Below, one piece after another: positions 1 through 64,000 of a DNA stretch of 64,000 nucleotides; the first letter of the stretch is position 1, and each line of letters begins with the position of its first letter. A program made the translations under genes and the position numbers. Source of the stretch: Nannobrachium achirus (taxonomy: Eukaryota > Chordata > Actinopteri > Myctophiformes > Myctophidae); contig OY997640.1 in the NCBI GenBank assembly GCA_963921795.1, forward strand, positions 55,616,113-55,680,112, read 5' to 3'. The notes beneath the pieces are model-generated. The model was not told where the DNA came from and did not search any database. It saw nothing but the letters and a program-made list of their open reading frames with translations.

Positions 1-351
1 TAACTTTAGCTATTGAAAAATAGCAGATATATACAAGCTCACTGCGAGCTTGTAGATCTGCTATTTTTTTAAAGTCGTGAAAATATGTGCAAATCTTTGA
101 ATATGTATTTTTTAAGCGAACATTTGTAACTCAAATTTTGCTTCTTGGGGGGTCCCTGGAATTAAATATTTTGAGATGGGGGTCCGTGGCCAAATTCATA
201 TCATTTTGGGGGTCCTTCACATGAAAAAGTTGGAGCATCACTGACATAGAAACATGGGTTTCTTGCACACATTTTCACAATTTCACAATTTCACAAAAAT
301 AGCAGATCTACAAGCTTGCAGCGCGGCACAGAATTTGGTGTGACGCCCCTG
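1..351 (+). mobile_element. hAT MITE, family CAGGGGCGTCACA, cut by window start
   Basis: Same body as the complete copy at 10050-10537: hairpin at 16-68, the GGGGGTCC-rich middle, a second (truncated) hairpin arm at 296-327, and the right terminal inverted repeat TGTGACGCCCCTG ending at 351. A (GT)n tract starts directly at the end, so a target duplication cannot be read. Confidence 0.5.
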
Positions 352-408
352 TGTGTGTGTGTGTGTGTGTGTGTGTGTGTGTGTGCGTGTGCGTGTGCGT
401 GTGCGTGT
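351..408 (+). repeat. (GT)n microsatellite
   Basis: About 58 bp of GT units with GC interruptions, abutting the end of the hAT MITE. Confidence 0.5.
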
Positions 409-1844
409 AATTATGTGTTCAGTACGTATTGCTTTTTATCGTCAGTGATTCGTAATATGCAGACCACTGTAACCAACAGCATGTGGAACTCTATGCTGGA
501 CTATCAATCATCCAGGAAAACGCTCCTGGCATTGCCTCCAGACTGTCTCAATAAAACACAGGGTTGGAAAGGCATCTGTGACTGTGACTGTGACTGTCTA
601 CCTGTAATCTGTTGCAAATGACAGAATACCTTCATGTAATCTGTCAGGGAATTGGGGGAGGCGGGTTGTTGAAACAAAGATTCTGGGCTGCAAGTGAAAG
701 TGAATTCACATTAAGTAATGCACAAATCGGTCTCAAAACTAGCATTCGATTATGAGCTGATAAGGAATTTGTGTTGTTGCAGACTGGAAAAGGGAACTTC
801 AGAAAAGACATTTCCAGTTTTTAGGACTAAAAGGGAATAGACCACACACTTTGTTTGTTTGGCTGTACAGTACATACAGACTACATGACTACAGAATGCT
901 GTACATTTCTGCATATGAAAATGCAAGGTGCTTTAATATTATATAAATAAGTGTACATACATTTTCTTACATGGTTGTAGTAGTGCATATTGTAAAAGAC
1001 TATGTAATAAAGATGTTTTCTTTCATTCATCTGTGGAAACCTTGTATCTATTTTTCAACATTTTATGTTTTGTTGTAATTATTGCCCTACTCGTACAAGT
1101 ATCACACAAACAATAGCTAAGGTAACGTGATGTGTGCTTGTATAGATCTAATATCTTTGAAACATTTTGAAAGTGAAAGTGAAGCGTGTCTGTGGATTTC
1201 ATAAATATTTAACCAATGAAAAGTATTGAAGAGCTTTGTGACTAAATAATAACTACAATAGATCCATTGATTTGGAACACAGGTTATGTTTTGCATTTCC
1301 TGAAGAGTTAGTGGACATACGTTTAACTGTTATCTCAGTCTGTAGTCCCTAAAGAAACTGGATTCCAATTGCATTTAAAGTAATTAATAACATAATAGGA
1401 CTTAATATTTTCCATGACTTAGTTGTCAAATACATTTCTGTCTCAAGTCTATCACAGGGCACGTCCATGATGAGGCACATATCTTTTATTGCAGCAACAA
1501 AACCTGATAATAAAGTCCTTAAGAGGGCAGTGAAGTTTGCTTGGAGACACATCTGGGGTTCGATCCCATCAGGTCGGACTCACTACATCTGGCGTAGTCG
1601 GCAGGACATTGAGGAGGTTCTCATGTGAGGCACATGAAAGATGTGCGTCGTTGTGTGAAGTGTGAAGCGCGAGGACAACCCTCCCAAAAACTGAGGGGGT
1701 AGATGTATGTAGTGCACCAGACCCGGCTACAACAGCTTTGCCAATGGAGCTCAGCAGCTCTATTGGCACGGTAGATTGTGTGCCGGTTTGCCATGTGGGA
1801 GACTGGGTTTGACACCAGCTCGGGTCTAAATCATTACACTTAAA
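409..1844. other. no gene seen
   Basis: AT-rich sequence without coding signal or clear repeat structure. At about 1735-1835 there is a tRNA-like stretch (GGAGCTCAGCAG and GGTTTGACACC as possible A and B boxes), perhaps an old SINE head; no cloverleaf could be supported. Confidence 0.5.
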
Positions 1845-1986
1845 GCCTGATTTATCCTTAAAATAATAGAAGATCTACAAGCTCACAACAACGTGTCATG
1901 TTGCGACACGTGTTGTGAACTTGAAGATCTGATATTTTCAGTCTGCGAGACTGCGACACAGCACACAACCCAAGTTTAAATCAGGC
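1845..1986. mobile_element. short inverted-repeat element carrying a hairpin cassette
   Basis: Ends GCCTGATTTATCCTT and AAGTTTAAATCAGGC form a 15-bp terminal inverted repeat with two mismatches. Inside, 1863-1938 is a hairpin cassette copy with an extended stem (ACACGTGTTGT). The same end type occurs in fragments near 18715, 22150-22325 and 58965. Superfamily not determined. Confidence 0.5.
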
Positions 1987-2410
1987 ACTAGTTCCTGGGT
2001 GTACAGTGCATAAAGACAGTACACTGCTCTACCTTATCTCTCTACCAGAGGCTAATATATGAGCCCTTTGTTCTGAGAGAGGACAGAAGACGGTTTGATA
2101 GGCCGGTCCATGAGGACATAGATGGGGATTTACTTTTTTCATCCAGGCCGTGATCTGCCTGCAGGCTCTGGGTGAGCGAGAACAAACGTTGACTCCTAAA
2201 AACTCCCTTATCTGAACCCCGCACTCTGTGAATTGCAGAGATGAGAAAGGAAATCACATTCTGGGTTTACACCTAAAAAGACCCTAAAGATTTATTTGTA
2301 GGTTAAATGGCCACTTACTATTGTAACAGATAATAATTTGACTCATTCATCAAATGGAATAATGCTAAATCCTTTGTAAATACTTTCCCCCCAAACAAGG
2401 TCACTCATAG

Positions 2411-2855
2411 TTGTCTCCACCAGCCGAAGGCTGAGGGAGAGTATGTTTTCCCCTCCGTCCGTCCGTGTGTCCGTCCGTCCGTGCGTCCGTCCGTGCGTGC
2501 GTGCGTGCGTGTGTCCTCGCAGTTTGTGTGCAGCTAATCTCAGTCGCCGTTGGCCCGGTCGCTGCCAAACTGAGCACACACACTCCCTGGATGCCAATCT
2601 AGAACCTCTGCCCCACATTTTTCAAATCAGCCTCATGGTGGCGCTATAACAGGCCGATTTGTGTGGCCTGGTTGTTACCAGCTAATCTCCGGCGCCGTTG
2701 GCCCGATCGCTGCCAAACTGAGCACACACACTCCCTGGATGCTAATTCAGAACCTCTGCCCCACATTTTTTAAATCAGCCTCATGGTGGCGCTATAACAG
2801 GCCGATTTGTGTGGCCTGGTGGAGACCTGTGCTCGGAAGAGCACTGCTTCTAGTT
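2411..2855 (+). mobile_element. Helentron-type non-autonomous element (HINE-like), copy 1
   Basis: It has the hallmarks of Helentron-associated elements. There is an 11-bp subterminal inverted repeat (GTCTCCACCAG at 2413-2423, CTGGTGGAGAC at 2816-2826) and an internal (GTCC)n-like microsatellite at about 2456-2512. A 3' hairpin GTGCTC-GGAA-GAGCAC (2829-2844) lies 5 nt before CTAG, and there is no target duplication. A unit of about 149 bp is duplicated in tandem inside it. Nearly identical to the copy at 54859-55291. No Rep/helicase coding sequence. Confidence 0.5.
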
Positions 2856-61888: not shown

Positions 61889-61965
61889 TATCTAGCGTGT
61901 CAAGAAGTTCTTGACATGCTAATGCTAGATGGTTTGGGGCATACATTCTTGACAAGAATGTATGC
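61889..61965. repeat. two adjacent palindromes
   Basis: ATCTAGC..TGTCAAGAAGTTCTTGACA..GCTAGAT (61889-61929) and GCATACATTCTTG / CAAGAATGTATGC (61939-61965). Confidence 0.5.
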
Positions 61966-62114
61966 GTTGTACAAAAACATATATTTGATTAATGGGGTAT
62001 GGCCCTACTGGTTTTATTGTCCCAACTAAAAGGTCACAAATGCAGAGGGGGAATCAGAATTTCTACAAAGAAAAGAGAAGGAGCAAAAATTTAAGAAGAA
62101 GAAAGTATCAGATG

Positions 62115-62300
62115 AGGGCACCGATAGTTAAGGCGCACACCACATATAGGCTCTAATGTCGCCTGGCAGCGAGTCACAGGTTCAATTCCTCCTGAGCCAG
62201 ACGGACTTTGCTGCGTGTCACTCTCTGTCCTCGTTTCCTGTCACTCTTCCACTGTACTATCCAATAAAGGCAGAAAAGCCCAAAACAAAACAAGCAACAA
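62115..62300 (+). mobile_element. tRNA-derived SINE
   Basis: B-box-like GGTTCAATTCC, TTTGCTGCGTGTCACTC, TTTCCTGTCACTC, CCAATAAAGGCAGAAAAGCC and an A-rich tail; same family as 37477-37685. Confidence 0.5.
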
Positions 62301-63706
62301 AAAAAAAGGTCAGACAAAATGTGAGCTACTTGGCGTCCCTCTCCAGCAAGGCCTGAAGGAAGTAGAGTGCAGTTGTTCCCAACGTATTCCAGTTATCGGT
62401 ATCACAATGAAACAAAAGTTTAAAGAAAAAAAATAATACTGTGACATTTTCTTTTACATTCATTTTGTAATATTATTACATTACCAATTATTTGGGGGCA
62501 CAATTGCAATATCCTGACGGCCCACCAGTTGGCCCCGGGCCCACAGCTTTGCGGATCGCAGAGCTAGTTTGTCCAATCCCTGAGAGAGCTTGGTAAATAA
62601 CCCTAGGCTGTTTGTGTTGCAGGCTTTCCTGCTAGCGCATGTTCACACACCCACCCATGCATGCACCCCCCGCCCCAAACACACACAGATTAATATCTAT
62701 GTCACCCTTTCTCACAGAATAATGCTTATTCACTCTGGCCCAATCCCAGCACCCAAATTGTTCTCCTTTTTTCTCTGTGCTCCACATTGCTTTACAGAAC
62801 ATAAAAATAAGAATCTTCCACACATGTGCCTCTAATAGTCAGAGTTATTAGAGTTATCATAAATAGAAAGTTTGCTGACATTTCTAAAGCTTCTGGAATA
62901 CTGCTGCGGCCTTACATTATACTCAGCACAACACTGAGTTATTTGCTGTATGCAGAAGATTGTACGGAGCTTCCAGGATGGGTTTTTTGCAGCCTATATC
63001 AACACAGCCTATTATTCTCTCTTATAAAAAATGACAAATATATGAAGGTCCGTCCCCGCCAGAGGCTGCATTATGCAGCAAATTCATGATGGTGGAGGAA
63101 GACCATAAATAGGTTGCCACAATACGCTCAGGAAAGAGCTTTGTCAAACAGTTTTAGGAGAGTTTATGTACGAGCACCGTTTACATTTAGTCACTGTATA
63201 GGACTCAATAAAGTAAACAGAGCACACACAAATCAGTAAGCCAACACAGGCTATTGCCATTTATCATGGATGTTTTTCTTTGACTATTATGAACTGGATC
63301 TGTACAGATGACGTGATTTAATAATGAGGTGGTTTAAATAAAGAACCTAACTAAGAGAAATTAGCACATGATTATGAAGTTGAAATAATGTGAAGATATC
63401 CCAGAGTGACACATTACAGGACTACAGGAAAGGTGTGGTTCTGAAATGCATGTAGTAATGCAATACCAGAAATGTAGTTATGCAATACCACTTCCCATTT
63501 GCACTTGACATTTTTGAAGATAGGCAGCAGCAAGCTTTGTTTTCCCAATCTCCAGACATCATTATTGCTTTCACCATTCTGTGGCCGTGCTCGTCCATAA
63601 GATGAGTACATGCTGACCGCTACCTCCTCCCAGGCCTGCTTCACGTCAGGCCCTGCTGCTCCCGTGGATGATCACGCACAGATCTGTCCGTTTCCTCAGC
63701 AGAAAA
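62301..63706. other. no gene seen
   Basis: No supported feature; short frames only. Confidence 0.5.
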
Positions 63707-64000
63707 CCGTTTTTGAAAAATCGTGAAAATGTGCGCACGTCTTTGAATATTTCAATTCTAAGGTTTTTGGAAAAGCCTATGTTCCTATGTCAGTGGTGCT
63801 CGAACTCCTTCATGTGAAGGACCCCCAAAATTATATGTATTTGGCCACGGACCCCCATCTCAAAATATTTAGTTCCAGGGACCCCCCAGAAGCAAAATTT
63901 GAGTTACAAATGTTCGCTTAAGAAATACATATATTCAAAGATTTGCACAGAATTTCACGACTTTTTCAAAAATAGCAGATCTACAAGCTTGCAGCGCGGA
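63707..64000 (-). mobile_element. double-hairpin element, cut by window end
   Basis: Contains the GGACCCCCAAAATTATATG middle of the CAGGGGCGTC/TTAA double-hairpin elements and one hairpin arm starting at 63967, cut off at the window edge. Confidence 0.5.

Follow-up and report, generated by a model that had tools for sequence, protein, structure and literature searches.

The hairpin cassette and its copy number

We analysed a 64,000-nucleotide stretch of the genome of the myctophid fish Nannobrachium achirus (assembly GCA_963921795.1, contig OY997640.1, positions 55,616,113 to 55,680,112), hereafter the window, which holds many copies of a palindromic hairpin cassette of ~70 bases lying in short DNA transposons of several kinds. 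The hairpin arm GATCTACAAGCTCACAACG matches the window 57 times at up to three mismatches, compared with 0.01 matches expected from 100 shuffles, and the exact arm 19-mer occurs 69,781 times in the genome (34,951 + 34,830; reversed control 0), so the palindrome that the original prediction had described stands far above chance. Exact matches to a 24-base arm pattern number 152,806 genome-wide (control 0). A profile made from 54 complete hairpins detected 42 cassettes in the window at E 1e-3; the earlier estimate of about 50 copies therefore depends on the cut-off. Eighteen 10-kb loci chosen independently of the hairpin (175 kb of letters) contain 66 cassettes by profile, from which a rough extrapolation gives ~625,000 cassettes in the 1.66-Gb genome; the cassette density of the window is ~1.7 times that of these loci.

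Clustering of 131 cassettes by their flanks gave 37 groups (39, 19, 15, 9, 7, 5, 3, 3, 2 and 2 members, and 27 singletons), a grouping in which chaining is possible and part of the singletons are decayed copies. Rfam returned no match to the window at gathering score, and one hairpin searched by itself gave sub-threshold matches only, the best of them to microRNA families. Literature searches with six hairpin 16-mers found no match, and topic searches found no mention of the hairpin; Repbase and Dfam were outside this comparison.

All eight hosts named in the original prediction are present at the positions given there, and each bears a hairpin. We name host families after the window position at which a copy starts. 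In the sampled sequence, the 10050 family carries the hairpin in nine of ten two-ended copies, the tenth (29756–30177) keeping the TTAACCCATTTAG end and only a decayed remnant of the hairpin, and all two-ended copies of host families 2 to 7 are hairpin-bearing (4, 5, 2, 3, 4 and 3 rows). Single host ends without a nearby hairpin are also present (loci L015, L027, L033, L003, L042, and L014).

TTAA elements and their nesting in hAT hosts

The features of the hosts with TTAA elements or their ends are given below in window coordinates, with the basis in brackets; no strand is assigned in this list or the next.

56865–57469: TTAA element with two hairpins, CCCATTTAGGCC...GGCCTAAATGGG, TTAA on each side (sequence)
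56917–57002: left hairpin cassette of this TTAA element (profile match)
57346–57436: right hairpin cassette of this TTAA element (profile match)
10050–10537: hAT host of the CAGGGGCGTC type, with a two-hairpin TTAA element minus its ends (alignment; empty site in locus L093)
10120–10211: left hairpin cassette of host 10050–10537 (profile match)
10385–10476: right hairpin cassette of host 10050–10537 (profile match)
24506–24975: hAT host of the CAGGGGTCTTCAACG type (sequence, alignment)
24726–24908: nested TTAA element including both TTAA copies, CCACTTGAACC...GGTTCAAGTGG, inside hAT 24506–24975 (empty site in locus L094)
24785–24873: single hairpin cassette inside the TTAA element 24730–24904 (profile match)
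53180–53588: second copy of the 24506-type hAT with its nested TTAA element, exact 8-bp duplication CACTAGAG (alignment)
41360–41782: hAT host of the TAGGGATGGGACGATA type, hairpin at 41470–41544, one TTAA-type end left (sequence, end profile)

The named host at 56869 is the TTAA element itself, and its two-hairpin interior is common to the hAT at 10050, which is flanked by the exact 8-bp target duplication CTTGTAAT. In an alignment of nine copies of the 10050 family, the right end of the TTAA element is clear in two and partial in a third. The empty site predicted for this family, a 19-mer with one TTAA, has a single exact match in the genome (C9:36209492), and a longer junction searched with up to three mismatches returned the same single place. 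This locus, L093, holds a 158-bp copy of the 10050-type hAT, which agrees with the host on either side of the junction. In the 24506 family, a complete TTAA-CCACTTGAACC...GGTTCAAGTGG-TTAA is present in all seven aligned copies. Its predicted empty site found no genome match as an exact 22-mer and one match as a 32-mer with three mismatches, at L094, where the left 170 bp agree with the 24506-type hAT at 86% and the right 34 bp at 100%. By these predicted single-TTAA empty sites, hosts 10050 and 24506 contain nested TTAA elements.

The target duplications at 24506 and 41360 have one mismatch each. Host 41360 likely acquired its hairpin in the same way, although the fit is weak: with a TTAA-end profile applied to 15 hand-picked flanks, one side of this type reached p 0.017, uncorrected like all p values of this test. 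Another hAT-like element, at L005 1275–1702 (CAGGGGTTTTCAAA, exact duplication GTCTAGCG), carries a hairpin and a TTAA-type right end. The original prediction held that the hosts share almost nothing besides the cassette, which is wrong for about half of them: 10050 and 56869 share their interior, 24506 contains a whole TTAA element, and 41360 has one TTAA-type end. The repeated nesting that it proposed stands for two hosts and likely for the third, with no TTAA element shown in the others, and one ordinary MITE (miniature inverted-repeat transposable element) whose nesting explains every case accounts for some hosts only.

TTAA context and conservation of the hairpin

The association with TTAA ends extends to the wider sample of 154 cassettes (308 sides, some loci being near-duplicates). 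The motif TTAACC[AC][CA][TC]TT, with at most one mismatch, has 30 starts at 0–60 bp outside a cassette, where 2.4 are expected, and 11 at 60–110 bp, where 2.7 are expected; beyond 110 bp it falls to background (13 starts, 13.1 expected). The motif is absent near many of the cassettes. In the TTAA-type elements, the hairpin begins ~30–60 bp inside an end. Across spacer clusters of these elements (249 pairs), the arms are 90% identical, the 12 end positions 65%, and the spacers 48% (49% when shuffled); these values come from the 29 sides on which the motif, a spacer and an arm could all be read, and the pattern-based finding of ends and arms inflates both of their figures. The hairpin arms are thus better conserved than the ends that flank them.

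Like piggyBac-type TTAA MITEs, the elements have TTAA on both sides and, in each of two families, one single-TTAA empty site. A terminal motif CC[C/T]T is quoted for piggyBac MITEs in the coral study PMC2872659, which gives CCCATT for the ends of the coral piggyBac AmiPB4; the ends found here are CCAC and CCCA, and do not strictly follow CC[C/T]T. Nor do the elements fit Kolobok-type TTAA MITEs, which are described with a terminal purine pair, RR (PMC6004289): the present ends begin with CC.

Hosts in which no TTAA element was found

The remaining hosts, and one cassette without a host, are as follows.

13356–13717: hAT host of the CAGTGGTTCTCAACC type, shortened hairpin at 13478–13520, no TTAA end detected (sequence, end profile)
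36449–36704: MITE host with TCGTTGTCGGG ends and TA-like borders, hairpin at 36515–36607, no TTAA end detected (sequence, end profile)
46878–47274: hAT host of the TAGGGCTGTCACGATT type, shortened hairpin at 47091–47149, TTAA end uncertain (sequence, end profile)
28805–29250: hAT-like host, CAAGGGACGCG...CACGTGCCTG, hairpin at 28869–28955 (relatives' duplications)
1845–1986: short host with GCCTGATTTA ends, hairpin at 1853–1947, an old family of unsettled superfamily (sequence)
7964–8063: cassette without a definable host (profile match, end comparison)

An 8-bp duplication with CAG/TAG-like inverted ends, as in hAT MITEs, was found for the 10050, 13356, 24506, 41360, 46878 and 28805 types, the duplication being exact or with one mismatch in each of the six, partly by way of relatives. 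The 13356 host is flanked by an exact CTCTACCA. The 46878 copy has no 8-bp duplication, and its relative at 60950 has an exact CTGGCAAC; three relatives of the 28805 host have exact duplications (L090 GTCACAGA, L091 ACACAGAG, and L012 ACCTCTGT). For the 46878 type, the TTAA-end profile was borderline, a single side of one relative (L027) reaching p 0.008. The right flank of the 13356 host had resembled a TTAA end by eye, and this candidate was dropped on the result of the profile. Among the copies formerly listed as standing alone, 28877–28950 sits in the hAT-like element 28805–29250, and only 7973–8054, our 7964–8063, has no definable host; its scores against three ends of one TTAA group were at chance level.

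If the hairpin were itself a mobile unit, entering other elements and duplicating a short target there, one would expect the TTCT found on each side of the hairpin in the 13356 family, the GGTG on each side in the 28805 family, and hosts with an undetectable TTAA end, of which there are four families. However, junctions of the 13356 family (up to three mismatches) number 21,950 with the hairpin and 10 without it genome-wide. Six of these 10 loci were fetched, and all are the same hAT with one TTCT instead of two. The hairpin-less copy in L096 has the right-hand subfamily of the hairpin-bearing copy in L013, and because of this the hairpin-less copies look like rare losses after acquisition, perhaps by slippage between the TTCT repeats. 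Moreover, a 4-bp repeat in such flanks is, by our estimate, common by chance; in most of the 16 hairpins compared below, complementarity extends to the bases that directly border the core, unlike in host DNA around an insertion; and constant border duplications with pre-insertion sites were not found in the one family tested. We therefore regard an independently mobile hairpin as very unlikely, and the bare-hairpin mobility suggested originally is not supported in the 13356 family, where it was testable.

Paired changes in the hairpin arms

The two arms change in a coordinated way. In 16 hairpins picked from different families and hosts, 91.1% of the paired cells are complementary, against a shuffled mean of 84.8% and 27–47% for slid partners; double changes occur in 18 of 38 pairs (10.0 in shuffles) and in 46 cells (17.8 in shuffles), and none of 500 shuffles was as high. 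The palindromic structure was imposed on this set, and kinship among the rows may inflate the values. In a wider set of 43 hairpins readable in both arms (36 distinct), the arms of the distinct hairpins agree in 81–100% of cases at 23 of 24 positions. The exception is position 9 (AAAATAGC[N]GATC; A 37, C 24, T 11, G 0), where only 18 of 36 agree, 40% being expected if the arms were independent.

The 36449 family, with 13,085 exact left-end matches in the genome and borders that are TA-like by eye, shows the same pattern. Counted by hand, the arms at position 5 agree in all 16 readable copies of the 20 listed (13 C/C and 3 T/T), and at position 9 they differ in nine of 14; these are related copies, two of them a tandem duplicate. 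Four copies of this family (L073, L074, L075, and L077) have centre-shortened hairpins, as expected of slippage-prone palindromes.

Long palindromes are prone to template switching. Copying of one arm onto the other during replication would produce paired changes in a hairpin without any role, and would fit the frequent centre shortening in the 36449 family as well as the variable foot and tip of the stem, which are also complementary in the 16 hairpins. Such copying should, however, erase the mismatch at position 9 unless its tracts are very short, and it leaves unexplained why the inner stem is conserved beyond the ends between TTAA families. The alignments seem to speak for constrained pairing in which one position is free, rather than for simple arm copying, which we consider rather unlikely as the full account.

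In a tree of 33 hairpins, those of the 10050 family fall among TTAA-element hairpins, and those of the 41360 family cluster with hairpins of TTAA-type elements. The hairpins of the 13356, 46878 and 36449 families form one group, whose support is only 0.74.

Autonomous piggyBac copies and the origin of the cassette

A genome search for the piggyBac domain PF13843 gave 116 scored matches, and we read flanks of transposase copies, 11 on the five-prime side and 33 on the three-prime side. Hairpins lie in four of the three-prime flanks (two families), in two of these as an inserted complete MITE. That the hairpin belongs to autonomous piggyBac ends was considered and rejected: most nearby hairpins are in MITE-like sequence, among the introns or next to the gene, and the one family whose right end was reached has no hairpin there. 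In one autonomous piggyBac family, the 34-bp end resembles the CCCATTTAGGCC end, with 19 and 7 of 20,000 shuffles as good against two MITE ends, mostly owing to its first 12 bp. At C2:71.34–71.85 Mb, more than 10 piggyBac-domain matches, most of them stop-free, lie on one strand in what looks like a local gene array. A 671-bp tandem duplication with two hairpins per unit adjoins a piggyBac transposase copy in L029.

We judge it probable (about 0.6) that piggyBac-like TTAA MITEs have the cassette as their conserved hairpin core, and that nesting and hitchhiking took it into other families. In this view, a clan of small, piggyBac-like elements without their own transposase, each built around the hairpin, would multiply by TTAA insertion, and some copies would land inside hAT-type MITEs; as the host keeps multiplying, the hairpin would be copied along, in the 10050 family after decay of a TTAA end. 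Hosts without TTAA remains may have taken the same route. The mobilising machinery would probably read the hairpin as a palindromic or folded site, because arm pairing and the inner-stem sequence appear to be under constraint.

Several observations weigh against this origin. Locus L093 is without an 8-bp duplication, and each empty site is a single locus, where precise excision could give a like picture; either way, the TTAA element is what arrived or left. On all sides of the 13356, 36449, 1845 and 28805 types, the TTAA-end profile gave p values of at least 0.08. The co-change of paired positions persists in the 36449 host, which has no TTAA ends, and is unexplained by a site for a TTAA transposase. 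The autonomous piggyBac family mentioned above, with four copies read, has the end TTAACCCTCTAAGGCC (CCCTCTAAGGCC terminus) and no hairpin there; the identified piggyBac ends as a whole carry no hairpin, the right end having been reached in one family only. Without the first 12 bp, the likeness between this family and the MITE ends is weak (2,956 and 883 of 20,000 shuffles as good).

Spread into hAT-like elements

In the window and loci L009–L028 we made a census of hAT-like elements, requiring that both ends and a target duplication be present. A first run gave 26 rows (control 3), from which five with hairpin-arm ends, two from hairpin-chosen loci, and one microsatellite-like hairpin row (L014) were removed; a second run had 18 rows (controls 0, 11, 1, 0, 1, and 0), and two hairpin-less rows were added. 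We suspect that hairpin arms are behind the control value of 11. Of the 20 elements kept, 10 carry the hairpin (five end types) and 10 do not (up to 10 types), whereas 11–28% of random 350–550 bp segments carry it.

This excess by element is one of the points for a portable helper, in which any non-autonomous element that picks up the hairpin would multiply more, irrespective of the transposase, so that hosts of the hairpin became abundant. The very abundant 13356 and 36449 families are hosts of different kinds, and the 36449 arms agree at position 5 although both states occur, in contrast to position 9. However, family copies are non-independent, and the count by end type is not clearly over chance; because it shows no clear excess, plain nesting may be enough for the spread into hAT types. 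Besides, hosts discovered through the hairpin are biased towards hairpin-bearing ones, and no mechanism is known. We consider such a helper unlikely, and quite improbable the claim that it acts across superfamilies, with pairing selected whatever the transposase and part of the abundance of several families due to it. Judged from the alignments, a structure that helps elements to spread, as the original prediction also proposed, may still be involved, with pairing apparently preserved both between families and inside a host that lacks TTAA ends.

Comparison with known elements

The CMITEs of Acropora corals (Wang et al. 2010, PMC2872659) are the closest precedent. They are likewise short TTAA MITEs with piggyBac-like ends and tandem copies, their inner region is reported to be better conserved between families than their ends, as we found here, and insertion of a MITE gave a composite element. 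A published CMITE 60-mer had no match in our sampled sequence at E 1, and the portions of the coral account considered here describe ~1,600 copies, and neither a hairpin with paired changes nor a spread into hAT or TA families. In their sequence features, the hairpin elements thus appear to behave like CMITEs without being CMITEs.

In piggyBac and piggyBat, a palindrome just inside the TTAA end is described, to which the transposase binds through its C-terminal zinc domains (PMC7351741, PMC11707139). According to the same sources, the piggyBac palindrome is 19 bp long, at bp 17–33, whereas the present one is ~70 bp, lies deeper inside, and has no transposase linked to it. Angel of zebrafish, compared by its description only, is also a fish DNA element of high copy number, whose long inverted repeats are able to form a stem-loop (PMC3636048). 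MER6 with a V domain is a further described case of a conserved module that a DNA transposon of a different kind spread as it multiplied (PMC6887750); the module there is reported as derived from a SINE (short interspersed nuclear element), unlike the hairpin of TTAA elements here.

MITEs are usually thought to need little beyond their ends, and an inner hairpin that is conserved beyond the ends, stays paired from family to family and has been carried into other superfamilies makes a role of internal structure in their abundance testable. Nesting makes chimeric families with a common core, which can mislead repeat annotation.

Tandem repeats in the window

The places 2531–2820 and 54960–55263 share a 148-bp tandem unit (CAGCTAATCTCAGGC...), with about two copies at each. 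Tandem units of 50 and 230 bp, at 30934–31090 and 49427–49853, contain CCATATATGGAG palindromes. A 119-bp tandem with two hairpins (49104–49324) adjoins a ACCAGTAAGACTCCCTAATCGGGAGATAAGCGACC element, and sequence of the ACCAGTAAGACTCCCTAATCGGGAGATAAGCGACC type is also present in L039 and in L011 7875–7970.

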